IMG/VR virus record: IMGVR_UViG_3300018049_000158 | Span: 1-23,042 of that record | Origin: a virus | Reading direction: 5' to 3' (one strand) | Length of the DNA stretch: 23,042 nt | Part shown: positions 1,093 through 20,195 of the stretch, piece after piece | Numbering within the stretch: the stretch's first letter is position 1 | Layout: every line of letters starts with the position of its first letter | The notes under the pieces: model-generated | Told to the model about the DNA's origin: nothing | What the model saw: only the letters and a program-made list of their open reading frames with translations | The model's database searches: none | Position numbers and translations under genes: made by a program

Positions 1093-2499
1093 ATGGCAGG
1101 TCTTCCTAAAGGTAAGGTTGTTACACCTTACGATTACTCGATAGACACAGCAAGGATTACTGCTGATCGTGCGCCCGGTCAGGCAATCGATATTCGTGAA
1201 GCTATCGTCCAAATAGACCTGTACGAGCACGTAGAGCACCCGTATGTGTCCGGCTCAATGATTGTACTGGATAACGTTGGAATATTCGAGCTGGGCGATT
1301 TTCAAGGAACCGAGAAATTTCAATTAAAGATTACACTACCTGACGATACCAAAAGTATTGAAAAGAATTTTATCATTGTATCTGTACAAAATGTTGTGAA
1401 AGAAAACGATAACACCTCTGATCTTTATTTCAGATTGGTGGAAGAGTCTTTCTTTAAAAATAAGATTAAAACGATGAGTAAGGGGTTCGAGGGTAAACCA
1501 AGTGAGATCATTGAATCTATCTTAAAAGAATCAGAGATCGGTGTAACTCTTGAAAAAGGAACTCCTGAGATACAAAACCGTATGAGATATATTGTTCCTT
1601 ATATCTGCCCATACGAAGCATGTGAGATTCTAAAGCAAGTATCTACTACGTCTGATGGTTATCCTTACTTTTTATATTCAACGGTTGGAAGTAAGGATAA
1701 GCTATATTTTAAGAACTTAGAGGAGTTATTCCAGGCTGCACCTATCACTAGCGAGCCGTTCATCTACTCGTTGTATACTACTGGTAAACAGGATGCTGAA
1801 TACACTCAACAAGCTAGATTTATAGAAGGTCCGTACGCAGAGAACCGTTTGATCACTGGAAGAAAGAATAAGCTAAAGCTAGAAGGTAAAGGTAGAACTG
1901 TCTCTAACTTTAACGTTTCAAATAATCATGACGTCCTATCGATTTTAAAAAAGGGATATATCGGATCAAACGTTTCTTCTATTAACTTGAATACAAGACA
2001 GACCGGTGCAGAGTTTAAGTTTAATGTGCAAGAAGTATTCGATAAAATGAGTACTTCAAGCATTTTTCCTGACGGTCAAAAAATACAGACATATGATGAC
2101 AAGGCTTTTGACGGAATGCATAATTCAAGCGCTAAGACCCAAACACGTTTATTCTCGTCACGTATATACTCAGACAATATAGCGAATATACATGATGAAG
2201 GATATACCCTCGGGGGTAACTCTCGAAACGTATACACTCAGAGAGCTATTCGCAATTTCTTCAGTAAAGAATCAATGGACGTAACTGTACCGGGTTATCA
2301 CTTCTTAGGAGAGAATCGAACAATTGGTCGGAAGATCAACCTGGGCTTCATTAAAAGTAACATTGATGCGAGTTTTACAGATCCATTTGACCGAAAGCTT
2401 TCAGGTGAATATATGATTTTTGCCACGAGACATACCTTTAGTCTGAAGAGATATGATGTAAGTTTAACCGGTATCAAATTAAGTAGTAGGAACAACTGA
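1093..2499 (+). CDS. 27: Baseplate hub protein gp27
   Basis: Predicted 468-residue hub subunit, longer than T4 gp27 (391). In T4 a gp27 trimer forms the ring joining the tail tube to the gp5 spike. The N-terminal 130 residues show the tube-like domain: a DIREAIVQIDLYEHVEHPYV stretch, then SGSMIVLDN and a LGDFQGTE...L.I.LP pattern common to gp27-type and other phage hub proteins. The middle (about 170-215) has a YIVPYICPYEACEIL...TSDGYPYFLYS segment typical of hub domains that fold back onto the tube domain. The C-terminus includes Y.V..PG...L..G..I.L, also expected for hub proteins. It lies directly upstream of gene 5 with a TGATG overlap (2497-2501), which fits equimolar synthesis of the gp27-gp5 complex. 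Confidence 0.85.
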   Translation: MAGLPKGKVVTPYDYSIDTARITADRAPGQAIDIREAIVQIDLYEHVEHPYVSGSMIVLDNVGIFELGDFQGTEKFQLKITLPDDTKSIEKNFIIVSVQNVVKENDNTSDLYFRLVEESFFKNKIKTMSKGFEGKPSEIIESILKESEIGVTLEKGTPEIQNRMRYIVPYICPYEACEILKQVSTTSDGYPYFLYSTVGSKDKLYFKNLEELFQAAPITSEPFIYSLYTTGKQDAEYTQQARFIEGPYAENRLITGRKNKLKLEGKGRTVSNFNVSNNHDVLSILKKGYIGSNVSSINLNTRQTGAEFKFNVQEVFDKMSTSSIFPDGQKIQTYDDKAFDGMHNSSAKTQTRLFSSRIYSDNIANIHDEGYTLGGNSRNVYTQRAIRNFFSKESMDVTVPGYHFLGENRTIGRKINLGFIKSNIDASFTDPFDRKLSGEYMIFATRHTFSLKRYDVSLTGIKLSSRNN

Positions 2500-3419
2500 T
2501 GAGCTATTTTATAGGTGATACCAGTAATTTCGGTGACGATGTAAGATGGTGGGTCGGTGAGGTTGTTGATACTAAAAATGATCCGCTGCAGCAAGGAAGA
2601 GCTCTTGTAAGGATCTTTGGCATACACGGTCCAGATGTTCGGGATGATCAATTGCCATGGGCACCAGTTATACTTCCGGTAACAAGTGCAGGTGCAGGCG
2701 GTGGAGGTATTACACCGAATCTACAAGATAATGCAAGAGTGATGGGGATCTTTCTAGACGGAAGAATATCACAGAATCCAATCATACTTGGTCATACCGT
2801 TACTACGGATCAAGGTCTACCTCCTGCAGGTCAGGGCGGTTCTCCTTCAGGTACATACGGAATTCTTCCCGATGCAGGTAATTTACCAGCTGGTCAGATA
2901 ACGGGTTCTCGGTTCAACGGAACTTCTCCTGAAATGAGAGAGACTGTTGAAGAAAGATATGGACCGATTACCGATCAAGAGTTTAGGGATCTCGTGTCAA
3001 TTATATACTGTGAAGCAACACCGGATGATAAAGAAAGAGCTTGGGTTTGTGCAACAATAATGAATAGAAGAAGAGCGAATCGTTGGTTCTCTGCTGATAC
3101 GGTAATAGGGGTTCTTTCGAAAAGATTCCAGTTTCAACCTGTGACGGGCTTATCTGGTAACGGTCCACCGTTACAGAAATTCATTGACGGACCTCCTGAA
3201 TCTATAGCTCGTCAGATATACGGGGCTGTAACACAATACCTAAATACTGCACCTGATAATCTATATAACTTTACTTCTGGTAATCCAGGTGCATATAGAG
3301 GAACCGGTAACGATCCAGAAAGTGTAAAAAGAGAGTGGACAACTGGTGACAACGCCTTGGTGTTTGTTGATACGATCGGTGAAACAATGTTCTTCATTGA
3401 TCCGAGAGGAGATGGATAA
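2499..3419 (+). CDS. 5: gp5-like hub protein: OB-fold plus SleB-like cell-wall hydrolase, no beta-helix
   Basis: 306 residues. Residues about 15-102 are the gp5/VgrG OB-fold: RWWVGEVVD...DPLQQGRALVRIFGIHGPD, the LPWAPVILP strand, and GIFLDGRISQNPIILGH. A Gly/Pro-rich linker (about 103-150) follows. Residues about 155-300 look like a SleB-type hydrolase (Hydrolase_2 family): IIYCEATPDD with candidate catalytic Glu172, then ERAWVCATIMNRRRANRW, TVIGVLSKRFQFQPV and a conserved NFTSG region. T4 gp5 carries a T4-lysozyme-type domain at the equivalent place and then continues into a C-terminal beta-helical needle; this protein stops after the hydrolase. A needle-like domain is encoded separately at 5613-7169. 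The role inferred is local peptidoglycan cleavage during tail contraction. SleB-like identity is from motif memory, not a search. Confidence 0.85.
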   Translation: MSYFIGDTSNFGDDVRWWVGEVVDTKNDPLQQGRALVRIFGIHGPDVRDDQLPWAPVILPVTSAGAGGGGITPNLQDNARVMGIFLDGRISQNPIILGHTVTTDQGLPPAGQGGSPSGTYGILPDAGNLPAGQITGSRFNGTSPEMRETVEERYGPITDQEFRDLVSIIYCEATPDDKERAWVCATIMNRRRANRWFSADTVIGVLSKRFQFQPVTGLSGNGPPLQKFIDGPPESIARQIYGAVTQYLNTAPDNLYNFTSGNPGAYRGTGNDPESVKREWTTGDNALVFVDTIGETMFFIDPRGDG

Positions 3420-3422
3420 TTC

Positions 3423-5594
3423 ATGCCTTTATTAGCTTTGAATACTATTAATAAAGTAATAACTGGTTTAAGTGCTGCTGGCAATCTTCTAACCGAAGGA
3501 TTGATCGACGTCTCTTTATATTCAAGAGCTGCTGACTTTGGTAAGTTAGGATCTGTGGGGGATCTTATCGGTGAGGAGGGAAAAGAATATTTTAAGGTTA
3601 TTCAATCTGCCGTAGATGGATCGAACTTTAGTGCTGTTGCTCCACTTAGCTTTTCTGGTGTAGCTACCTCCTTTAGTGATCTAAGAGGAATGCAGTTAGC
3701 ATTTTCAAACGCTTTAGTCGATCTATCTGACGGCCTTGCAAATGCAGAGGTCTATGTTAATGGAGCAGGTAAGGATCAGTTAATTGATCAAACGACCATT
3801 AGCTCTTTGCAGTCAGAACTTGATTCGCTCAACGGTGATCTCAATGGATCGGTGACTACTACATCAGAACTATTAAAGACTGTAACCTCTTCAAGCAATC
3901 CTGCAGCATTGAATAGAGCTCTTCAGGAATCTACTAACGTTGAATTATCAGATCTAAGCGGCGTTTTAGAGCAAGCGAATAATTTTCCTACCCAAGACGT
4001 AGGAGAGGCAATACGTCAAGCTGATTTCAGAGAACCGAGTGGTGTAGCTCTATTACAATTCTCTGAAGTTACAAGTGTCATTTCAGGATTAAAAGACTTA
4101 GCAAGTCGTGTTCAAAGCGAAATACTACAACTTGGCGAGGGTATAATCCCAGATGATATCATTAGTGATCTATCCAGTCAGGTAAAGGATATCCAGTCAG
4201 GTATACCAGCAATTTCAAAGGCAGCTGCTACTGTCGGAGCTATATCTGGTGTGATTGAGTCAACTGTTCCATCATATTCCGGTAGATTGGTAGATGATAT
4301 TGTATACGATCTTGATGAAGAGATACAGAAGACGCTGCAGACTCTTTTAAGTAAAAACCTTATACCGGCAGATGAAAAACTTCAAATCCTTCAATCATTA
4401 GTTTCCGGAAATATTACAAAGGCAACAAATCTTGTAATAAGGTTCCAGAATGAAACAGCCACGATTACCGAACCAAAGGATATATCTGCGGTATTAGAAA
4501 ACATTAATCTTGATGTTCCGACTATGGTTACCGATGGATCCGGTGAGAGAATCCCAGCCACAAATCTCTCTTCAATCGGTAATCTCAACTTTGTTAATAC
4601 TGCAGAAGAGATGGAAGCTATATTCGCTTCATCCTCTCGCAGGATTGATTCGATCTTACTCCACGGGGGTCCAGGAAATATTGACGCATCGGTTTTAAAT
4701 AACTATCACTTTACCATTGGCCGCAAAGGTAGAGTCGTTCGAGGCGCACCGATCGGGCAAACTGTTTCAGGTCTCGGAGGAGGTAATGGAACAGTACACA
4801 TTTTAATTCAGGGTGATCCACTTGCTGTAGACCAGACTACAAATAAAGGTACCACACAGCAAATTGAATCCTATAGACAGATCATAATCGCTGCAAAAAG
4901 AATAATTCCTGGTATCACAAGTGATAATGTAAACGTAGTCAACACTGCGCTTGCTGAAGCAGCAGGTAGCCAGGTACAAGGCCCAGCTTCACCTCCAATC
5001 ATTTCTGAGGGGGTAGTACCATTTAATCCGAACCAAGTTGATTATTGTAGTACCGGATCAGGTAATAGCTTTACTGGACCAGCTGGAAGAGCGCCAGCAT
5101 ATAATGGACCTATCATTCCTGGAAAAGCAGGCTTTGGTCCAGATAACGTCCCCTATACCGAAAGATATTCTATGGATCAAACCAAGAATCCTGAAAGGAT
5201 TGGTTACGATGGAACAAACGGAAAAATCGATCCGAGCACATTGATTCAGGTTCAGGAAAGATCCTACTCTGGTTGGGGCACAGGTCCAATGCTTCTCAAA
5301 CCGGATGTCGCCCAAAACTTTATTGAGATGAGAGATGCTGCAAGATCTGATGGAATTGATATTATATTGAATCACGGCTATCGTTCGTACTATTATCAGT
5401 ATCTAATCTCGATAGATCCAGGTGAACCAATCTTTGCCCAGCCGGGTAGATCAAACCATGGTACAGCTGTGGCAATCGATGTACATCCTGGTCCTGGTGT
5501 TTTGAACTGGATGAATGCAAACGGAGCTCGTTGGAATCTTATTAATAGACTTGGATCCAGAGATCCGATCCACTTCTCCCCGAGTGGCAGATAA
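3423..5594 (+). CDS. Hub-associated multidomain protein: helical N-terminus, degenerate amidase-like domain, M15 peptidase
   Basis: 723 residues. Residues 1-400 are Ser/Leu/Asp-rich and mostly helical in appearance, with no recognised family. Residues about 400-510 resemble an Amidase_2 (N-acetylmuramoyl-alanine amidase) fold: IDSILLHGG (His414), NYHFTIGRKGRVVRGAPIGQ and TVHILIQGD (His459). The usual late H...CPG zinc-ligand segment is not visible, so this domain is probably inactive. Residues about 580-723 look like an M15 D,D-peptidase (VanY-like): HGYRS, then SNHGTAVAID (Ser677, His679, Asp686; one Gly of the S.H..G.A.D motif is Ala) and a terminal DPIHF (Asp714, His717) in place of the usual EPWH. 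Three likely zinc ligands are therefore present. The gene starts four bases after gene 5 ends and is followed by the spike gene, so a hub or spike-associated peptidoglycan peptidase is the likely role. Confidence 0.72.
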   Translation: MPLLALNTINKVITGLSAAGNLLTEGLIDVSLYSRAADFGKLGSVGDLIGEEGKEYFKVIQSAVDGSNFSAVAPLSFSGVATSFSDLRGMQLAFSNALVDLSDGLANAEVYVNGAGKDQLIDQTTISSLQSELDSLNGDLNGSVTTTSELLKTVTSSSNPAALNRALQESTNVELSDLSGVLEQANNFPTQDVGEAIRQADFREPSGVALLQFSEVTSVISGLKDLASRVQSEILQLGEGIIPDDIISDLSSQVKDIQSGIPAISKAAATVGAISGVIESTVPSYSGRLVDDIVYDLDEEIQKTLQTLLSKNLIPADEKLQILQSLVSGNITKATNLVIRFQNETATITEPKDISAVLENINLDVPTMVTDGSGERIPATNLSSIGNLNFVNTAEEMEAIFASSSRRIDSILLHGGPGNIDASVLNNYHFTIGRKGRVVRGAPIGQTVSGLGGGNGTVHILIQGDPLAVDQTTNKGTTQQIESYRQIIIAAKRIIPGITSDNVNVVNTALAEAAGSQVQGPASPPIISEGVVPFNPNQVDYCSTGSGNSFTGPAGRAPAYNGPIIPGKAGFGPDNVPYTERYSMDQTKNPERIGYDGTNGKIDPSTLIQVQERSYSGWGTGPMLLKPDVAQNFIEMRDAARSDGIDIILNHGYRSYYYQYLISIDPGEPIFAQPGRSNHGTAVAIDVHPGPGVLNWMNANGARWNLINRLGSRDPIHFSPSGR

Positions 5595-5612
5595 GTGAAT
5601 TAGGAGAAATAA

Positions 5613-7169
5613 ATGACGACCGCACAAGATATTGTTATTGCTATCGGGACAAATGATACTAGCACAAGTGACATTATTGCTGGTAATATAAGACAAATCG
5701 TTAATTACTTTGAAGAAATTGGTGTTCAAAGTATTACTATTATTCTGCCGAATCTTCAATTATTTCGTACACAGTATGAAGCGATAACGAGAGGAGCTGG
5801 TGGTACTTCGGCTAAGTTGGTAAACGGCGAATATCAACAATCGAAACTGACCGATAACTATGTAAAAAGATTTAACACGACAAACCCCGGAGCCACTATT
5901 CTAGGTGATCTAAATGCAGTTAAGCTGGCTGGGTCAACGTCATCAGAATCAACTTCATTCCGAAGCGCTGGAGCAACCACTGGCGAGTTAACTGCACAGG
6001 TTGTTGGTGTACTTGGAAATCCTTTAATAGAGGAAGAGAATGAAGGATCCACAACAGGACTTACCGATACCGTTACCGGTAGAGCAAATGAGCAATTAAG
6101 AACTAACTCTGCTTTAACAGGTGTTGATCTATCTTGTCATGGCGGCAGAGTTGGCGATTACGGAAATACCCAGGTAACAAGATCTCCTGGCGGGCATCAT
6201 GTCGAATTAAACGATACACCTGGGTCCGAAAGAATACTTCTCAAGCACTCAAATGGTTCTGGTATTGAAATCCGTCCTGATGGTTCTATTCTTATTTCAG
6301 CATCGTCACTTGTATTCGATTTACAAGGCGGTATGAACATTATAGGCAACGGTAATCTAAATATCGATGCTGGTGATGTTACAGTAAAAGGTAGAGGTAA
6401 GATTAAGCTTGATGCAGGCGGTAGACTGATCACCAAATCAACACACTCTATGGAGCTTGTCTCAGGATCAAAATACTCTAAAATTGACGGTTCGGCCCAT
6501 ACACGTATTACAGGACAAAACTCTTCCATTACAGTCGGTGAGAAATCTGAGGTGAACCTAAGTGGATCAAGTATAAGTACCAAAGGTGAAAGTAAAATAC
6601 TCAGTGAAGGTAATATGACGCTTGCTTCGGCAGGTCCGTTTTCTCTTAGCTCCCAGATAGGGGCTTACATGTCTTCACCTTCAACTCGTATCAACGGCAA
6701 TAAGTTACAGATCATAGGATCTTCTGGTACGATTGGTGGTGATAATATCATCATGTATAACTATAATATGTACACAGACCATACCATAACAGCTGGGGAT
6801 ACGCTGGAGACGCGAGCTGTTCATGCAGATAGGGTAAATGCTACAAGTATGCATGCTACCACGTTCCATGGCGATCTAACCGGTCGAGCAGACACGGCTA
6901 TTGCTTCTGATACGGCCAACTATGCTTCAAGTGCTGGTTCTGCTCCATTAGGTTCTGCTGGTTCTCCTTCTGGTTGGACGAATAATAATACTACTGCAGA
7001 TGACGTAGAGCTTGATGATAAAGAAACGTTCAGACCGACTAGTGATATCGTAAACGCTCGAATGAAGACCCTTGGAAATGGTATAAGAGAAGTTCAGATT
7101 GATGTTGGAGATTACATCCGAGATCAACTTGATCACAGTGAAAGACACGGTCTGTCTACTAGAAATTAA
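5613..7169 (+). CDS. Cell-puncturing spike, gp5 C-terminal/VgrG-type beta-helix with truncated SGNH hydrolase N-terminus
   Basis: 518 residues. The first ~95 residues resemble the second half of an SGNH/GDSL hydrolase: IVIAIGTND (block III, residues 12-15), then IRQIVNYFEEIGVQSITIILP. The GDS nucleophile block is absent and no D..H block V is visible. A TAA stop lies immediately before the ATG, so the N-terminus cannot be extended. Residues about 171-235 match the strand after the OB-fold in gp5/VgrG spikes: GGHHVELNDTPGSERILLKHSNGSGIEI, then PDGSILIS. Residues about 235-390 are repeated short strands (LNIDAGDVTVKG, IKLDAGG, SITVGEKSEVNLSGS) typical of a trimeric beta-helix needle. The C-terminus carries a fibre-like FHGDLTGRADTA segment. 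A TAGGAG ribosome-binding site precedes the start. Role inferred: the membrane-piercing needle, encoded apart from gp5. Confidence 0.78.
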   Translation: MTTAQDIVIAIGTNDTSTSDIIAGNIRQIVNYFEEIGVQSITIILPNLQLFRTQYEAITRGAGGTSAKLVNGEYQQSKLTDNYVKRFNTTNPGATILGDLNAVKLAGSTSSESTSFRSAGATTGELTAQVVGVLGNPLIEEENEGSTTGLTDTVTGRANEQLRTNSALTGVDLSCHGGRVGDYGNTQVTRSPGGHHVELNDTPGSERILLKHSNGSGIEIRPDGSILISASSLVFDLQGGMNIIGNGNLNIDAGDVTVKGRGKIKLDAGGRLITKSTHSMELVSGSKYSKIDGSAHTRITGQNSSITVGEKSEVNLSGSSISTKGESKILSEGNMTLASAGPFSLSSQIGAYMSSPSTRINGNKLQIIGSSGTIGGDNIIMYNYNMYTDHTITAGDTLETRAVHADRVNATSMHATTFHGDLTGRADTAIASDTANYASSAGSAPLGSAGSPSGWTNNNTTADDVELDDKETFRPTSDIVNARMKTLGNGIREVQIDVGDYIRDQLDHSERHGLSTRN

Positions 7170-7182
7170 GTGAGGAATAGAA

Positions 7183-8040
7183 ATGGCAATCTTTTTTAAT
7201 GATACAGGACAGGTTATTTCGAGCCTAAGAAACAGCACGCTTTCTTTTGAAAATAATCCTCTTCATGTACAAGAATCCATTGCAAAAGGATTTATATCTG
7301 AAGAGGGTCTGAATGTTTCTCCTCCTGCTATACAAAAGATCGCTGGTGCACAACCAGTAACAGGATTGACAAAGCTTGGTATAGGCGCACCAACAAAAAG
7401 ATTTCAGCCATCTGTCGGTTTAAAGGATTTTGTTCCCGATCCTGAATTCTTTCCTACGGCGAATAAAATATCTACACAGGGTTCAGGATATCATCTTACA
7501 AGAAATATCACTATTGCAACCTTTAGCGGATCGAATCATGCTCCTGTAGATTTCGACCAAGTAGAAGAACCGATGGTTGTAGCAAAGAATTTGTACCTTC
7601 AAGCATGCATCCTTTCTGCAGCAAGTTCAAGGAAAGAGTTTCAGGGTTACAGGATTTTAGTTGAAGAAGGTCTTTATAACTATGCAGATGTTGAAACAAG
7701 AATCGAAGGTGACTTAGCAGATCTTTCTTCGAAAGGAAGAGCAATCGCATATAACGTAGTGACACACGAGGGTGGATTCTATAGTAAGAGTAAGGTGTTT
7801 CAATTAGCACAATATCTTTTACACTATCCGTTCTATGATAAGTTAATATTAGATTGGCACACTTATACAGGTGCGCTTGGGGTTAGATTGTTTGTGGTAA
7901 CTCCTGATATATCAAATGGCACTGAAGGTGTAGTCTTTAAAAGAGAGACAGAGACTCGATTCAACAATAAAGTAATGTCGGGTAGCTTATGTCTACTCGG
8001 AACAAATATTGGTGGCACATCTACAACGGAATCGATTTAA
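7183..8040 (+). CDS. Spike-adjacent structural protein, possible catalytically dead M15-like fold
   Basis: 285 residues with no confident family. The N-terminal ~100 residues are low in recognisable features. Residues about 155-240 show the spacing of a Peptidase_M15_3-like domain: YRILVEEGLYNY, then SSKGRAIAYNVV (about 182-193), then PFYDKLILDWHTYTGALGVRLFVV. In active members these correspond to S.H..G.A.D, the PFDQLI.E strand and a W.H. strand. Here the ligand positions appear to be Ser, Ala and Arg, so metal binding would be lost. This is inference from pattern, not a search result. The gene follows the spike after 13 bases with a GAGGA ribosome-binding site and is the last gene before the promoter region at 8041-8124, so it probably serves the spike or hub. 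A purely structural baseplate protein of unrelated fold is the main alternative. Confidence 0.55.
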   Translation: MAIFFNDTGQVISSLRNSTLSFENNPLHVQESIAKGFISEEGLNVSPPAIQKIAGAQPVTGLTKLGIGAPTKRFQPSVGLKDFVPDPEFFPTANKISTQGSGYHLTRNITIATFSGSNHAPVDFDQVEEPMVVAKNLYLQACILSAASSRKEFQGYRILVEEGLYNYADVETRIEGDLADLSSKGRAIAYNVVTHEGGFYSKSKVFQLAQYLLHYPFYDKLILDWHTYTGALGVRLFVVTPDISNGTEGVVFKRETETRFNNKVMSGSLCLLGTNIGGTSTTESI

Positions 8041-8107: not shown

Positions 8108-8127
8108 GGGAAGGATAGAATACATTG
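8108..8127 (+). promoter_or_regulatory. Strong ribosome-binding site deciding a TTG start for gene 25
   Basis: GGGAAGGA at 8108-8115 is a good Shine-Dalgarno sequence nine bases before TTG at 8125-8127. No ATG or GTG lies in frame near the conserved N-terminus, so TTG is the best-supported start. Confidence 0.7.
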
Positions 8128-8568
8128 GCTACCCGTACATTTTCTCAAGAGACGAATGTCTTATCTGGGAGCAGTATTACATCATCTCGTTCTAGAGATT
8201 ATAAAGATATAGATCTATCATTCCTTACGAATGACTATGGAGATGTGTATAAAAAGATTGATGCTGCTGCAGTAAAACAATCATTAAAGAATTTAATATT
8301 AACTGACTATGCAGAGAAGCCTTTTAATTATTACTTTGGATCAGATATAAGAGGATTACTCTTTGAACTTTTTGATGCTGGTACCGAAGGCGATGTACAA
8401 TATAGGATTCAAAACGCAATTGATAACTGGGAGCCAAGAGCACAGGTAATTAATATTACGGTAAAGGCTCTTGATGAAGAGAACGCATTAGATATTCAAC
8501 TTACTTTTAGGGTTATTAATACGACAGAAACAATTACCCTTAATACAACTCTTTCGAGGCTAAGATAA
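8125..8568 (+). CDS. 25: Baseplate wedge protein gp25
   Basis: 147 residues, close to T4 gp25 (132). The GPW/gp25 family signature is clear in residues about 50-145: VKQSLKNLILTDYAEKPFNYYFGS followed by DIRGLLFELFD, then RIQNAIDNWEPRAQVINITV and a closing strand pair. In T4 gp25 sits in the wedge core next to gp6 and gp53 and contacts the sheath, where it primes sheath assembly. The first ~30 residues are a Ser/Thr-rich extension. It starts with TTG behind a strong ribosome-binding site, unlike its ATG-starting neighbours, and is followed one base later by gene 6. It is the first gene after the promoter-bearing gap. Confidence 0.94.
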   Translation: MATRTFSQETNVLSGSSITSSRSRDYKDIDLSFLTNDYGDVYKKIDAAAVKQSLKNLILTDYAEKPFNYYFGSDIRGLLFELFDAGTEGDVQYRIQNAIDNWEPRAQVINITVKALDEENALDIQLTFRVINTTETITLNTTLSRLR

Positions 8569-13821: not shown

Positions 13822-16800
13822 ATGGCTTCACCACTTATTCAAAATATATTCTCTAACGTTTATAAAGATGATTTCCGCGATAGTGCAAACTATCATCGTA
13901 TTCTTTTTAATTCCGGTAGAGCTGTACAGGCAAGAGAACTTACTCAAATGCAGACCATCATCCAAAGGGAGATGGAAAGATTTGGTAATAATATCTTTAA
14001 AGATGGTGCAGCGGTAAATCCTGTACAGAACGTTTACATTAATAATAAATTTGATTTTGTTAAAATCCAAAACACTGGATTGACAGCTTCTGCTATTATC
14101 GGATTTACCCTTACAGGTGCCACATCAGGAGCAGTTGCAAAAGTAGTAGATTACATTGCACCTGAAGATGGTGATCCTGCAACTTTATATGTCACTTACT
14201 CTTCCGGTGGTGGTATTAATGGTGACTCACGCTTCAGAACTGGTGAAACTTTAACCGGTGGACCAATCTCCATCTATGTTCAAAGCACTAATACCACTGA
14301 CAATCCATCTATAGGTTATGCTACAAAGGCATCGGTTCAAACAGGTGCATTCTTTGTCAAGGGACACTTCGTTCAATCGAATCCACAGTCAATCATCGTA
14401 AGTAAATATTCTTCAACACCTACAGAGATAGTTGGATTTAGAGTAACAGAAACTGCTCACACAGTACTCGATGATACAACTCTTTATGATAACTCTCAGG
14501 ATAATTACAATCTAACTGCTCCCGGTGCTGACAGATATAAGATTTCTCTTGATTTAGTTACTCAGACTGAAGCAGCAGCAAATGATTGGGATTTTGTATT
14601 CCTTGCAAATATTGTAGGTGGTGATGTTGTTCAGATCAACGATGGCGCTGATGGTTATAATAGAATTCTTGACGTCATGGCTCAAAGAACAAAAGAGGAG
14701 TCAGGCAATTATACTGTTCGCCCGTTCACTTCTTTCTTCCAGGAAGATAGTGCTAATACACACCTAATACTAAATGTTGCTGGGGGTGTTGGATACGTTA
14801 ATGGCTACCGTGCATCGCCTGGTCCGAATAAAATCAGAGTACCGAAGCCGACTGATACCGAAGTAAGAGCAGATGAGGCAATCTCTGCAACTTATGGTAA
14901 CTGGGTAGAGGTTGACACTATGTTAGGAGACAGTGGGTTTCCTGATGTTACAAACCTAACAACTGTTAATTTAAGATCTGCTACTACTCATGGCGGCAGC
15001 ACTATTGGTACTGCAAGAGTGAGATCAGTTGAGCCTGTTGGGTCAAATTATAAGGTCTATCTCTTTGATATTCAGATGAATACGAGTCAGGACTTTAGAA
15101 GTACAAGATCTATCGGTACAAGTACGACCAACTATGCAGACGTAGTATTACAGAATGGCAATGCTGTGCTTGAAGGAATTCAAGATGCGAACCTATTCTT
15201 TCCTTTACCTTATACCCGACCTGAATCGATCGAAGCCGCGGCAGCTTATTACACTTATTCCACACTTAGAAACTTTACTGCTACTACAACAAGTGGTAAT
15301 GCTACTATCAGTGCGAATGCTGGTGAGACCTTTGATAACACGAATTCATGGATCGTATTTGATGATACAACTGGCGCGGTTATCTCGAGTCCTACAATCA
15401 CTCTTACAGGAAGTCCAGTAGGAAACTCTGCTGATATTAGTGCAGGAAACGGCAGTAACGGTATACGTGTTGTTGCTATCTTGCAAAAAGGTGGATCTGG
15501 TGACGGTAACGCCTATAAGACTAAAACTCTTACCAATACTACTGTAACATCTACAGTTACATCAGACTCTGAAGGAACTTGGATCTCACTTGAAAATGCT
15601 GATATCTATAACGTCACTCGCATCACTGCTGTTGATTCCGATGGTCCAGATCTATCGAGCAGATTCTATCTTGATAACGGTCAGAGGGATAACTTCTATG
15701 GCGTAGGTAAGATTCGCCTAAATCCTGGTCAAGTTGCTCCTGTAACTGACGTATTCGTAAGATTTAATCACTTTGCTCACTCTGGTGATGGCGACTTCTT
15801 CTGCGTTAGCTCTTATCCAGTTGGAACAGGTTCAGGTCAGATCCTTTACTCAGAGATCCCATCATATAGACAAACAAATGGTGAAAGAGTTGAGCTAAGA
15901 GACGTTCTTGACTTCCGTCCAAGAAAAGATAATACCAACGCAAACTTTACTGGCACAGGATCCAGCTCATCTGAGATTCCGCCAAATACAGATCTTATTA
16001 CAGTTACCCCGACTTACTATCTTCCGAGAAGGGATGCACTAGTACTTCAGGATAACGGTGACCTTGCGTACCTAACAGGAACATCGAACTTTAACCCACA
16101 GTATCCGAAGATTCCTGATAACTCTATGCAGCTCTATAGCTTCCAACTAGAGCCGAATACGCTGAATCCGAAAGATCTTCAGTCACGTCACTATGACAAC
16201 AGAAGATACACGATGAGGGATATCGGAAAGCTTCATCATAAGATTAATAAGGTAGAGGAGTTAGCTACTCTTAGCCTACTAGATCTTGAGGCTTCTACTC
16301 TTGAGGTTCTCGATGGTAGCGGTAATCCAAGAACAAAGGCAGGATTCCTTACAGACGACTTTAAGGATCACAGAGCTTCAAACGTAGATGATTTAGAATT
16401 CAGAGCTTCTATTGATCCTACCCAAGGTATTATGAGACCTGGTTATAGACAGAAGAACGTTCCACTAATCATCGACTCTGATGCATCACTATTAGCAAAT
16501 ACTGTTCTAAGATCAGACTATATTCTTCTTGACTATACATCAACGTTGATGCTTGAACAACCAATTGCTTCTCGTATCCAAAACATCAACCCATTCACTG
16601 TTATTAATTATAACGGCACTCTTATAATGTCACCATCTGGTGATGAAGCTGGAGACAACGATTCAATTAGGCTTAGAGTTGATGGAAGAGACGAGATTGG
16701 TATCGAAACATTCTTAAACAATATTCTCGGTCAAGATGATACTCGTGAGGTTCTAAGACAGCTTGAGAATAATCCTGAGTTTGGTGGACGTGCAGCATTC

Positions 16801-19149
16801 GTCCGTCAGAGAATTTCTCTAAACGATGCAAACAACTTTACGAGTGCAGGTAGCCTAGAGGATGCGATTTCTACACTTCCGCCGAACACTTCTCAAATCC
16901 TTGCATCTGTGTTTGATAATATTAATCCGACATGGAGAGAATATGCTTGGGGTTGGGCAGGTATCGAAAGCAGAGAAACTGAGGAACAGCTTCTCAACGG
17001 TGGTATACCAACTACATCTGAAAGCACATTTGGTAGATTTGCTACTCGATTGTTTATCCCGCGTATACGCTCTCGCGAAGTACGATTCCACGCAAAGGGT
17101 CTGAAACCGAATACTATCCACTATCCGTTCTTTGATGGTATACGTGTTGATTCTTACGTAGTACAACTTAGCAGACTCGGACTCAATGCACAATACTGGG
17201 ATCACGAAAGATGGTGGTGGTCCAACCGCAGAACATGGGTGTGGCCAGGTTGGGATTCACGTCTGTTCTTCAGGAGACGTTGGTGGAGATGGCACCCATA
17301 TTGGCAAGACACACAGCCTTCTGTAACTCAGAGGCGCCTCGTCTCGGATGAAAACGGTGAGATAAAGGGATCATTCATGATTCCAAATAATAACGAGGAT
17401 GTTTTCTTTGCCGGTGAAAGAACATTCTCTCTTTATGATATTACTGAAGAAGATCTACTTAACTCTACATCAAGAGCTTCAACTGTATATACGGTTGAAG
17501 GTACGAACTCTGTTAGAATAGAAGGGAATAGGACCGCCGGCGGAAGATCTTCTTATGGTCTAGGTCTATTCCTTATATTTGCCTTTGACCCTGTTGCTCA
17601 GGCATTCAGAGTAGAGAATCCTTCAGGTGCATATATTACAAAGATCAGAGTGTACTTCCAATCAAAAGATACTGTAAACAACATTCCTGTAGATTGTGAG
17701 ATTCGCCCGATGGTGAATGGATATCCTGCAGCAGAAGAGATTGTTGAAGGTGGATTTAAACAGCTGCAGGCATCAGAAGTAAATGTTTCTGACGATGCAT
17801 CCGCTGCTACAGACTTCGTATTCGACGTTCCAGTTTACCTTGAGGGTAACAAAGAGTACGCATTCGTTCTCAGAGCAGCGACAGATGCTTATAACGTCTG
17901 GACAGCTAAGATGGGTGACTTCATTCTTGGTAGAACTGATAAGAAAGTTTCAAAGCAACCTTCTCTGGGAGCTTTCTTCGTATCATCAAATGGTACAACT
18001 TGGAACGGTATTCACGATCAAGATATTACATTCCAGATCGAAAGAGCAGAGTTCGAGACAAGTGGCTCGGTCATTATGCACAATGATGTAATTGTTCCGA
18101 AACTTATTCCTGAGAATCCGTTCTTATTCGATTCTGGAAGTGATATCGTAAGAGTCATTCATCCGAACCATGGTCTACAAGTTGGCGATGATATATCATT
18201 CCCAGGCGTAGACTCTTCACTTAGCTATCCGCTTTCAAATGCTTCAGTACTTGCTGGAATGTTCGATGTTAAGAAAGTTGATAACACTGGTTATCACATT
18301 CAGATCAGTGAGAACGCTACGGGTAATGCAAGATCCGGTGGTTCTAATGTTCAGGCTCCTGATAATGCCGTAATGGATGAGATGTATCCGTCAATCGAGG
18401 TATTTACACCTTCAAAGACAAATACGTCTATGCAGGGTAAATTTACATACGGTCTATCTCTCGCGGGCGCATCCGGATCAGAAGGACACGGTACAACATA
18501 CAATCTAGAAGCAGATTACACTCATAACTTGGTACCATTTGAAGCTTATAAGTTTGATGCTCCAAGAGTAATCGTATCAGAAAAGCTAGAGGAAGATATA
18601 GAGCATCCGGATAACACTGCGTTTATTAAGGTAAATCTGACCACTACTTCGGATTGGGTATCGCCAATTGTATCAGCATCAAGAGCTTCTATTACAACCA
18701 TTAGTAATATTATTGATAATCAGGATTCTGCAGATGACGTATCGCCTTTCAATAATCCTCTAAGCTTTATCTCAGAGACCGATCCATTTGGTGGTACTTC
18801 AGCTGCTAAGTATGTAACAAAACCAGTTACAATTGAAGAACCAGCAAAAGGACTTAAGGTCATTCTTTCTGCAAATAGACCGAAAGCTGCAAGCTTCGAT
18901 CTCTATTACAAGATTGTTAGCGGTGACGGAAATCTAAATGAAACAGCATGGGTTTACCAAGATCCTGATACTGAAGTACCGTTCGATGAGGATCCCACTA
19001 AGTTTAGAGAGTATCGCTACACAATTGGTGGCGTAGGTGGAACACTCGACGAATTCACAACGTTTCAGATTAAGATCGTTATGAATAGTTCTAACAGCTC
19101 TCGAGTCCCAGTCTTCAAAGACTTCAGAGCAATTGCTTTAACGGTGTAA
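13822..19149 (+). CDS. Giant baseplate/tail-fibre structural protein, DUF4815-like N-terminus
   Basis: 1775 residues, the largest gene here. The N-terminus (YKDDFRDSANYHRILFNSGRA, then RELTQMQTIIQREMERFG and NIFKDGAAVNP) matches the DUF4815-type start seen in large virion proteins of marine T4-like phages. Residues about 94-146 carry the TLTGATSGAVAKVVDY...GETLTG module shared with gp53 and gp8. A long strand-rich middle follows. Residues about 1124-1161 form a Trp/Arg-rich segment with 11 Trp in 38 residues, placed between FFDGIRVDSYV and a G.I.G.F.IPN stretch. The C-terminus has repeated beta-sandwich-like strands ending FKDFRAIALTV. No enzyme motif was found. It probably forms an arm or long peripheral baseplate element to which the fibres downstream attach; a gp7-like scaffold role is an alternative. 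Confidence 0.72.
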   Translation: MASPLIQNIFSNVYKDDFRDSANYHRILFNSGRAVQARELTQMQTIIQREMERFGNNIFKDGAAVNPVQNVYINNKFDFVKIQNTGLTASAIIGFTLTGATSGAVAKVVDYIAPEDGDPATLYVTYSSGGGINGDSRFRTGETLTGGPISIYVQSTNTTDNPSIGYATKASVQTGAFFVKGHFVQSNPQSIIVSKYSSTPTEIVGFRVTETAHTVLDDTTLYDNSQDNYNLTAPGADRYKISLDLVTQTEAAANDWDFVFLANIVGGDVVQINDGADGYNRILDVMAQRTKEESGNYTVRPFTSFFQEDSANTHLILNVAGGVGYVNGYRASPGPNKIRVPKPTDTEVRADEAISATYGNWVEVDTMLGDSGFPDVTNLTTVNLRSATTHGGSTIGTARVRSVEPVGSNYKVYLFDIQMNTSQDFRSTRSIGTSTTNYADVVLQNGNAVLEGIQDANLFFPLPYTRPESIEAAAAYYTYSTLRNFTATTTSGNATISANAGETFDNTNSWIVFDDTTGAVISSPTITLTGSPVGNSADISAGNGSNGIRVVAILQKGGSGDGNAYKTKTLTNTTVTSTVTSDSEGTWISLENADIYNVTRITAVDSDGPDLSSRFYLDNGQRDNFYGVGKIRLNPGQVAPVTDVFVRFNHFAHSGDGDFFCVSSYPVGTGSGQILYSEIPSYRQTNGERVELRDVLDFRPRKDNTNANFTGTGSSSSEIPPNTDLITVTPTYYLPRRDALVLQDNGDLAYLTGTSNFNPQYPKIPDNSMQLYSFQLEPNTLNPKDLQSRHYDNRRYTMRDIGKLHHKINKVEELATLSLLDLEASTLEVLDGSGNPRTKAGFLTDDFKDHRASNVDDLEFRASIDPTQGIMRPGYRQKNVPLIIDSDASLLANTVLRSDYILLDYTSTLMLEQPIASRIQNINPFTVINYNGTLIMSPSGDEAGDNDSIRLRVDGRDEIGIETFLNNILGQDDTREVLRQLENNPEFGGRAAFVRQRISLNDANNFTSAGSLEDAISTLPPNTSQILASVFDNINPTWREYAWGWAGIESRETEEQLLNGGIPTTSESTFGRFATRLFIPRIRSREVRFHAKGLKPNTIHYPFFDGIRVDSYVVQLSRLGLNAQYWDHERWWWSNRRTWVWPGWDSRLFFRRRWWRWHPYWQDTQPSVTQRRLVSDENGEIKGSFMIPNNNEDVFFAGERTFSLYDITEEDLLNSTSRASTVYTVEGTNSVRIEGNRTAGGRSSYGLGLFLIFAFDPVAQAFRVENPSGAYITKIRVYFQSKDTVNNIPVDCEIRPMVNGYPAAEEIVEGGFKQLQASEVNVSDDASAATDFVFDVPVYLEGNKEYAFVLRAATDAYNVWTAKMGDFILGRTDKKVSKQPSLGAFFVSSNGTTWNGIHDQDITFQIERAEFETSGSVIMHNDVIVPKLIPENPFLFDSGSDIVRVIHPNHGLQVGDDISFPGVDSSLSYPLSNASVLAGMFDVKKVDNTGYHIQISENATGNARSGGSNVQAPDNAVMDEMYPSIEVFTPSKTNTSMQGKFTYGLSLAGASGSEGHGTTYNLEADYTHNLVPFEAYKFDAPRVIVSEKLEEDIEHPDNTAFIKVNLTTTSDWVSPIVSASRASITTISNIIDNQDSADDVSPFNNPLSFISETDPFGGTSAAKYVTKPVTIEEPAKGLKVILSANRPKAASFDLYYKIVSGDGNLNETAWVYQDPDTEVPFDEDPTKFREYRYTIGGVGGTLDEFTTFQIKIVMNSSNSSRVPVFKDFRAIALTV

Positions 19150-19150
19150 T

Positions 19151-19351
19151 ATGAAAGTAAAAGGTCATAATAACCTTTTGAAAGACTTCGCATCAGGTGC
19201 AGTTGTAAATACTGATATATCATCAATGAGGGCGGCAAGGGAAAGACGTGCCGCCCAATTACAAGAAAAAGAAAGATTCAATAATCTAGAAAAAGAAGTG
19301 AGCGACATTAAAATTCTTCTAGAAAAAATAATAGGAAAGTTAAATGACTGA
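19151..19351 (+). CDS. Small coiled-coil protein of unknown function
   Basis: 66 residues beginning two bases after the previous stop (TAATATG). The N-terminus (LLKDFASGAVVNTD) is followed by an Arg/Ala-rich helix (SSMRAARERRAAQ) and a Leu/Ile-heptad-like helix (FNNLEKEVSDIKILLEKIIG) likely to form a coiled coil. Similar small proteins sit between large structural proteins and fibres in marine T4-like phages, where no function is established to my knowledge. Its stop lies inside the next gene (eight-base overlap), which suggests translational coupling to the S74 fibre; an assembly helper or fibre adaptor is a guess. It contains a GC-rich hairpin at 19230-19256. Confidence 0.65.
   Translation: MKVKGHNNLLKDFASGAVVNTDISSMRAARERRAAQLQEKERFNNLEKEVSDIKILLEKIIGKLND
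19230..19256 (+). other. GC-rich perfect inverted repeat inside the 66-residue gene
   Basis: GGGCGGCA at 19230-19237 pairs perfectly with TGCCGCCC at 19249-19256 across an 11-base loop. The bases after it are A-rich rather than T-rich, so it is not a typical terminator. It lies 88 bases before the fibre start at 19344 and might influence mRNA stability or coupling; it also simply encodes the RAARERRAA repeat. Confidence 0.55.
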
Positions 19352-20195
19352 AATTGCCATTAATAATACTATCGATTATTGGAGACTCCAATATAATACG
19401 CTGCAAGCGGATGTTACGACTTTAACAGATCGTGTCAATGATCTAATTGGTGATCCCGATATTCCTGGTGATACCGGAACTATTGATGGTGACGCTAAAA
19501 GCAATTTCTCTTCCGCAAATGCTGCTATTTTATATGATGTCAATACAGGTGTATTCACACATACTACTGGCGGGGGAACAACCGTAAATAATAGTAATGG
19601 TGTAGTTGTTCAGGATATCGGATTAGACGATTGGGGTCACGTTTCGTCCATCGGTTCTGTTGATCTTGATAATAGATATATGAGGCCGGACGTGCTGGTA
19701 ACAAAAACTTCTGGCGATATCACATTAAATGACAATATTGCATTAAACATTGGTTCAGGAGATGATGCAGAGCTTTTCCACGATGGAGCAAATCTCTATC
19801 TTGATCTAAATAATGATGATAACATGTACATCCGTGATGGAAATAGTGGTAACGCTACCCGTTTTACTTTTTCGGTATCAAATGGTAACTTTACTGCAAC
19901 AGGAAACGTAACAGCTTATTCGGATTTAAGATTAAAAAGTAATGTAGAAAAAATTACAGATGCTGTTAAAAAAGTACAAAGTCTAAACGGCGTAGTCTTT
20001 GATAGACTAGAAGAAAGTTTAGATCAACGTGGAACCGGGTTAATTGCACAAGAGGTGCTAGCAGTATTACCAGAGGCTGTAGTCGAGGATGAGAACGGAT
20101 ATCTTTCAGTTGCTTATGGTAACCTTGTTGGTCTGCTTGTAGAATCTATTAAAGAATTGAAATCAGAAATAGAAGAGCTCAAAGGTAGTCAGTAA
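19344..20195 (+). CDS. Tail fibre with self-cleaving S74 intramolecular chaperone domain
   Basis: 283 residues. Residues 1-40 are a helical, probably coiled-coil start (YWRLQYNTLQADVTTLTDRV). The middle contains fibre strands, including LNIGSGDDAELFHDGANLYL followed by a D-rich loop. The C-terminal ~91 residues are a Peptidase_S74 domain: SDLRLKSNVE (Ser193, Lys198, the expected self-cleavage pair), VFDRLEE, GTGLIAQEVLAVLPEAV, LSVAYGNLVGLLVESIKELK. Known S74 domains trimerise the fibre, then cut themselves off just before this Ser. Cleavage would leave a ~192-residue trimeric fibre. It overlaps the preceding small gene by eight bases and the following adhesin gene by one (TAATG). The role is probably host recognition at the baseplate periphery. 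Confidence 0.88.
   Translation: MTEIAINNTIDYWRLQYNTLQADVTTLTDRVNDLIGDPDIPGDTGTIDGDAKSNFSSANAAILYDVNTGVFTHTTGGGTTVNNSNGVVVQDIGLDDWGHVSSIGSVDLDNRYMRPDVLVTKTSGDITLNDNIALNIGSGDDAELFHDGANLYLDLNNDDNMYIRDGNSGNATRFTFSVSNGNFTATGNVTAYSDLRLKSNVEKITDAVKKVQSLNGVVFDRLEESLDQRGTGLIAQEVLAVLPEAVVEDENGYLSVAYGNLVGLLVESIKELKSEIEELKGSQ

Follow-up and report, generated by a model that had tools for sequence, protein, structure and literature searches.

A split gp5 with predicted-catalytic and metal-free hydrolase folds in the tail hub of a T4-like myovirus

Results

Pieces of gp5 between gp27 and gp25

We propose that a T4-like myovirus encodes its cell-puncturing hub on the 23,042-base IMG/VR fragment analyzed here (the window), with gp5 in pieces and with two domains predicted to be catalytic, one for glycan and one for peptide bonds, next to two metal-free folds; we give this reading a probability of about 0.72. 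The puncturing role is proposed by analogy with T4, and we also infer the enzymatic activity of hub domains and the presence of the hub proteins in the virion.

The window was recognized as part of a T4-like myovirus by gp53, gp27, gp25, gp6 and further baseplate genes (Pfam, PHROG). Within 13822-20195 it also encodes a protein of 1,775 aa that matches DUF4815 (E 2e-52) and, nearby, a protein with a Peptidase_S74 chaperone at its end (E 9e-13); both are probably tail fibre parts. Four open reading frames, of 306, 723, 518 and 285 aa, lie between gp27 and gp25:

1093-2499: gp27 (phrog_350, E 3e-42)
2499..3419, + strand: N-terminal part of gp5 as a gene of its own (gp5N), 306 aa, OB fold and enzyme domain, counterpart of T4 gp5* (phrog_430)
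3423..5594, + strand: middle protein (MID), 723 aa, gene between the two gp5 halves (homologues at the same place in about 40 loci)
5613..7169, + strand: C-terminal needle of gp5 as a gene of its own, 518 aa, counterpart of T4 gp5C (phrog_430)
7183..8040, + strand: probable needle-tip protein, 285 aa, putative M15-like fold without zinc ligands (fusions, model, ligand columns)
8125-8568: gp25 (Pfam, E 8e-13)

The 306-aa and the 518-aa protein matched the two ends of one profile, phrog_430 (baseplate hub and tail lysozyme), at positions 13-115 (E 5e-25) and 332-598 (E 6e-15), respectively, which indicates homology of the OB and needle parts to gp5. T4 gp5 unites OB fold, enzyme domain and beta-helix in a single precursor; in the window, by contrast, the two halves are separate open reading frames with the 2.2 kb MID gene in between. 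Several other metagenome contigs carry near-identical copies of the window, so the gene breaks at the hub are not errors of a single assembly. Furthermore, the gene order gp53-gp27-gp5N-MID-needle-285-gp25-gp6 is repeated in about 40 IMG/VR loci (viral contigs). These T4-like loci form a clade in which gp5 is split up: one gene encodes the OB fold and the enzyme, the next is the variable middle gene and the third encodes the needle. The original prediction had placed four hydrolase-type domains between gp27 and gene 25; all four were confirmed, that of the 285-aa protein most weakly.

A diverged SleB-like domain behind the OB fold

The OB fold of gp5N is matched weakly by the Gp5_OB profile in the window, and the same profile was matched by 25 of the 26 members of the clade alignment. 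The second half of the protein carries the first of the two domains that we predict to be catalytic:

2886..3416, + strand: SleB/Hydrolase_2-type domain, residues 130-306 (Pfam E 0.0022 and a bridge through SynMITS9220M01)
3012-3014, + strand: candidate catalytic Glu172 (SleB family alignment)

Taken in isolation, this domain scored 19.0 bits against Pfam Hydrolase_2 (E 0.0022), below the curated cut-off of 27. With a SleB profile, it ranked first among 2,001 sequences, 2,000 of them shuffles, and the single sequence reached an hhalign probability of only 4%. A link was provided by a hub-cluster protein of the cyanophage SynMITS9220M01, which was related to the window domain by tblastn (E 0.009) and matched Hydrolase_2 above the cut-off (E 2.7e-7). 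A two-sequence profile built from this protein and the window domain aligned with 124 SleB-type sequences at an hhalign probability of 92% (E 5e-7). A PDB sequence search with the SleB region returned nothing useful, and in viral contigs the SleB and M15 regions of the window had no close relatives other than copies of the same virus.

The domain is strongly diverged, particularly in its C-terminal half, and its E172-A and N-R motifs line up with those of SleB endolysins. Glu172 occupies the position of the catalytic Glu of the SleB family. These comparisons identify the second half of gp5N as a diverged SleB/Hydrolase_2 domain, weakly so from the single sequence and with the cyanophage protein as a bridge; the SleB-like hydrolase and the Glu172 of the original prediction were both correct. 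We refer to it as SleB-like because its membership depends on this bridge and its own Pfam score lies below the cut-off.

At 1354-1830, L129, a 157 kb record behind locus L064 and the closest near-complete relative, encodes a SleB-type protein that stands alone and has a signal or anchor at its N-terminus. This protein is probably the lysis endolysin of its virus, and the SleB domain of the window gp5 could have come from it.

An amidase-like and an M15 domain in the middle protein

The middle protein carries two domains of hydrolase type:

4584..4952, + strand: degenerate Amidase_2/PGRP-fold domain, residues ~388-510 (homology, fold match, ligand table)
4662-4664, + strand: His414, sole retained amidase zinc ligand (ligand table)
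5190..5591, + strand: M15 (VanY-type) peptidase domain, residues 590-723, C-terminus of MID (VanY, E 5e-7)
5457-5459, + strand: putative M15 zinc ligand His679 (alignment with cyanophage M15)
5478-5480, + strand: putative M15 zinc ligand Asp686 (alignment with cyanophage M15)
5562-5564, + strand: M15 candidate acid Asp714 (D/E at this position in cyanophage M15 domains)
5571-5573, + strand: putative M15 zinc ligand His717 (alignment with cyanophage M15)

The window MID itself did not match the Amidase_2 profile, which was matched by 15 of 28 MID homologues (best E 1.7e-15). The AlphaFold model of residues ~390-545 resembled LysC (Z 10.5, rmsd 3.5, 120 aligned) and T7 lysozyme (Z 9.5), and its further neighbours were AmpD and PGRPs, including non-catalytic PGRPs. 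The model thus points to an Amidase_2 fold, in line with the amidase-like domain that had been predicted. Of the three zinc ligands of this family (H, H, D/C), two are absent from the window. The complete H/H/D set is present in 13 of the 28 homologues, and at least two of the three ligands are lost in the other 15, the window included. Since the window retains only His414 while 13 homologues have all three ligands, its amidase-like domain is very likely not an active amidase.

The C-terminal domain of MID scored 30.0 bits against VanY, above the cut-off of 25. It contains the H-x6-D ... H pattern with an acid before the last His, and His679, Asp686, His717 and Asp714 align ligand by ligand with the M15 domains of the cyanophages DSL-LC03 and S-SSM4. 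With this apparently intact zinc site, the domain looks catalytic and is a predicted peptide cutter; the M15 peptidase and its three named ligands had been correctly foreseen.

Upstream of these domains, residues 1-387 (window 3423-4583) are predicted to be mostly helical, with low confidence; they have no family match and are partly conserved across the clade. Model confidence is low in MID outside residues 388-500.

The needle and its probable tip

The open reading frame of the needle is preceded by TAGGAG, a ribosome-binding-like sequence. The protein is ~100 residues longer at its N-terminus (window 5613-6002) than its relatives and begins with a G-T-N-D motif. The motif resembles part of an SGNH hydrolase, and an SGNH-like reading of the first ~115 residues is at most a possibility, as no family and no relative was found.

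The 285-aa protein belongs to no sequence family in Pfam, NCBIfam or PHROG, and Pfam and NCBIfam were also empty for nine relatives. Its structural model (pLDDT 87) gave no significant match with Foldseek (E above 0.1). With VIA-align, the top 22 rows were all chains of the Hedgehog/M15 DD-peptidase fold, at a modest best Z of 5.6. We conclude from the model that the protein probably has a Hedgehog/M15 fold, this being the weakest of the four domain assignments. Four fused relatives had Peptidase_M15_3 matches, which we did not count as evidence for the fold: they more likely stem from an additional M15 domain at the C-terminus, as was seen directly beyond the 285-aa part in L080. In the 33-member alignment of the family, no sequence has a His at 182 or an Asp at 189, so that the first two M15 ligands are absent, and no His column is universally conserved. 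The "possible dead M15-like protein" of the original prediction is therefore probably right, the fold being the uncertain step.

The 285-aa domain continues the needle protein in most relatives and is a separate gene in the window, L064 and L007. Because of these fusions, the 285-aa family probably represents the tip of the needle. In ten other loci (L066, L067, L068, L070, L086, L089, L097, L098, L109 and L112), the needle-tip protein is in two genes, with a break near residue 75. The window has its break at another position, which suggests that gene fission has affected this polypeptide more than once. Needle proteins extending past the 285-aa part were observed in L072 (7830-10142), L080 (7872-10490) and L087 (7791-10337); the extra segments contain M15-type domains in L080 and L087, and the segment in L072 is unexplained. 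A PAAR cap, sought in ten clade records that were mostly fragments and without a T4 control, was not found. That the tip domain replaces PAAR is only a suggestion.

The two metal-free folds might be peptidoglycan-recognizing binding modules, comparable with the non-catalytic PGRPs of animals. We hold this to be a tentative option, to be given rather less than even odds. It is favoured by the persistence of both folds in many lineages after ligand loss and by the non-catalytic PGRPs among the structural neighbours of the amidase-like domain, but retention of the folds would also be expected if their role were purely structural. Such a binding function is compatible with the puncturing hub proposed above and does not exclude it. 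A more specific idea, that the metal-free M15-like tip, conserved throughout the clade, is a substrate-reading module that touches peptidoglycan peptides first and triggers needle release for the wall-cutting domains, appears to us a long shot.

Exchange, loss and movement of domains among relatives

Behind the OB fold, Phage_lysozyme2 was matched in 21 of 26 clade members, SLT in one and Hydrolase_2 in one; the window is a member with a SleB/Hydrolase_2-type domain at this place. In every intact hub examined, the OB fold is followed by an enzyme domain that can be recognized or aligned, and the presence of such a domain in the OB protein is the feature that does not vary across the clade.

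The amidase zinc site changed state at least four times on a gp6 tree, which is a quick tree with several open forks and some long branches. The window groups on it with L007 and L064 (support 99), whose MID proteins have C-terminal extensions with zinc-peptidase-like motifs that carry no Pfam name. An M15_3 domain ends MID in L089 and the needle protein in L082, the two being 42% identical (E 6e-24), and the needle protein of L080 also ends in a similar M15 domain. Judging from their sequences, homologous M15 domains have moved between the middle gene and the needle end in different viruses. A rule by which amidase loss is offset by M15 gain was rejected, as several lineages have neither. Comparison across the relatives indicates that the domains of the spike genes are swapped, lost and moved between hub genes. 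The suggestion that the enzymes are adapted to an unusual cell wall found no support: closely related viruses differ in their enzyme set, and hub clusters of cyanophages contain enzymes of the same types.

We also considered that all four domains are structural relics, the wall being opened only by other enzymes and by puncturing force of the gp5 type. The strong divergence of the SleB-like domain and the wide occurrence of degenerate amidase domains in the clade would agree with this. Yet the M15 zinc triad and Glu172 of the SleB-like domain are retained, and the persistence of an enzyme domain behind the OB fold in all intact hubs examined also argues against it, so that we regard it as unlikely. 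That all four domains are active as a four-enzyme kit is highly improbable, since each has a hydrolase-type fold or sequence match but the amidase-like domain lacks two ligands in the window, where 13 relatives keep all three, and the first two M15 ligands occur in 0 of 33 members of the 285-aa family, with no universally conserved His. A mix of active domains and structural relics, one of the two alternatives in the original prediction, fits best, with catalytic residues kept in the SleB-like and M15 domains and zinc sites lost in the other two.

Discussion

In the puncturing hub that we propose, gp5N, with its OB fold and SleB-type domain, would be bound to gp27 and cut glycan strands, and the C-terminal M15 peptidase of MID would cut stem peptides; cleavage of both bond types by these two apparently intact domains is plausible. 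The zinc-less amidase-fold domain of MID would probably serve only in structure or peptidoglycan binding. The 518-aa protein would be the beta-helical needle and the 285-aa M15-like protein without a zinc site its tip domain. By analogy with T4, the needle would pierce the outer membrane and then be shed, which would free the enzymes bound to gp27. The proteolytic cleavage step of T4 gp5 would not be needed here, because the gp5 halves are encoded by two genes.

The gp5 spike of T4 is a textbook puncturing device. In the present clade, its parts are encoded apart and its enzyme domain can be exchanged; peptidases move between MID and needle proteins, and enzyme folds persist after loss of the metal site. 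Since some natural relatives have an intact zinc site and others do not, comparing them offers a direct test of the importance of individual hub domains for penetration of the wall. The clade also allows one to test whether the division of gp5 into genes takes the place of its proteolytic activation in T4.

In T4, gp5 is a single precursor chain from which the lysozyme is freed by proteolysis, gp5* and gp5C being separate chains in the mature particle; the lysozyme is kept inactive by a linker and a helix until cleavage and needle shedding (PMC3004832). The window resembles this system in its OB fold, enzyme domain, beta-helical needle and adjoining gp27 and gp25. It differs in having two genes with a third between them instead of one cleaved precursor. 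A SleB-type domain stands where T4 has its own type of lysozyme, and an M15 peptidase and a tip domain are present in addition. The contrast with the single tail lysozyme of T4, drawn in the original prediction, is correct, and multi-enzyme hubs were already known: the hub protein gp15 of the Anabaena myophage A-1(L) has endoglucanase and peptidase domains shown to lyse host cells (PMC10966104). This is likewise a baseplate hub with several hydrolase domains, but all are in one protein, the enzyme types are others and there is no T4-type gp5.

A split gp5 has been reported for the Pootjesviridae Atu_ph04, phiM9 and P10VF (PMC6630229), in which the OB part and the needle part are also separate genes. 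The OB part of P10VF has a CHAP domain and lies ~33 kb from the needle part, with no MID-family gene found in the stretches read; no member of the 285-aa family was found. The hub clusters of Kyanoviridae (DSL-LC03, S-SSM4, SynMITS9220M01) are similar in having VanY-type M15, SLT or Hydrolase_2 domains between hub genes and gp27/gp5. They differ in that gp5 is a single gene where it was read (S-8S56, S-CAM3), and the 285-aa family was not found in them. Split gp5, dual-activity hubs and the same enzyme types in cyanophage hub clusters are thus already known. As far as we searched the open-licence literature, the new elements are the shuffling of domains between hub genes throughout a clade, an amidase site that was lost repeatedly and the M15-like tip without zinc ligands.
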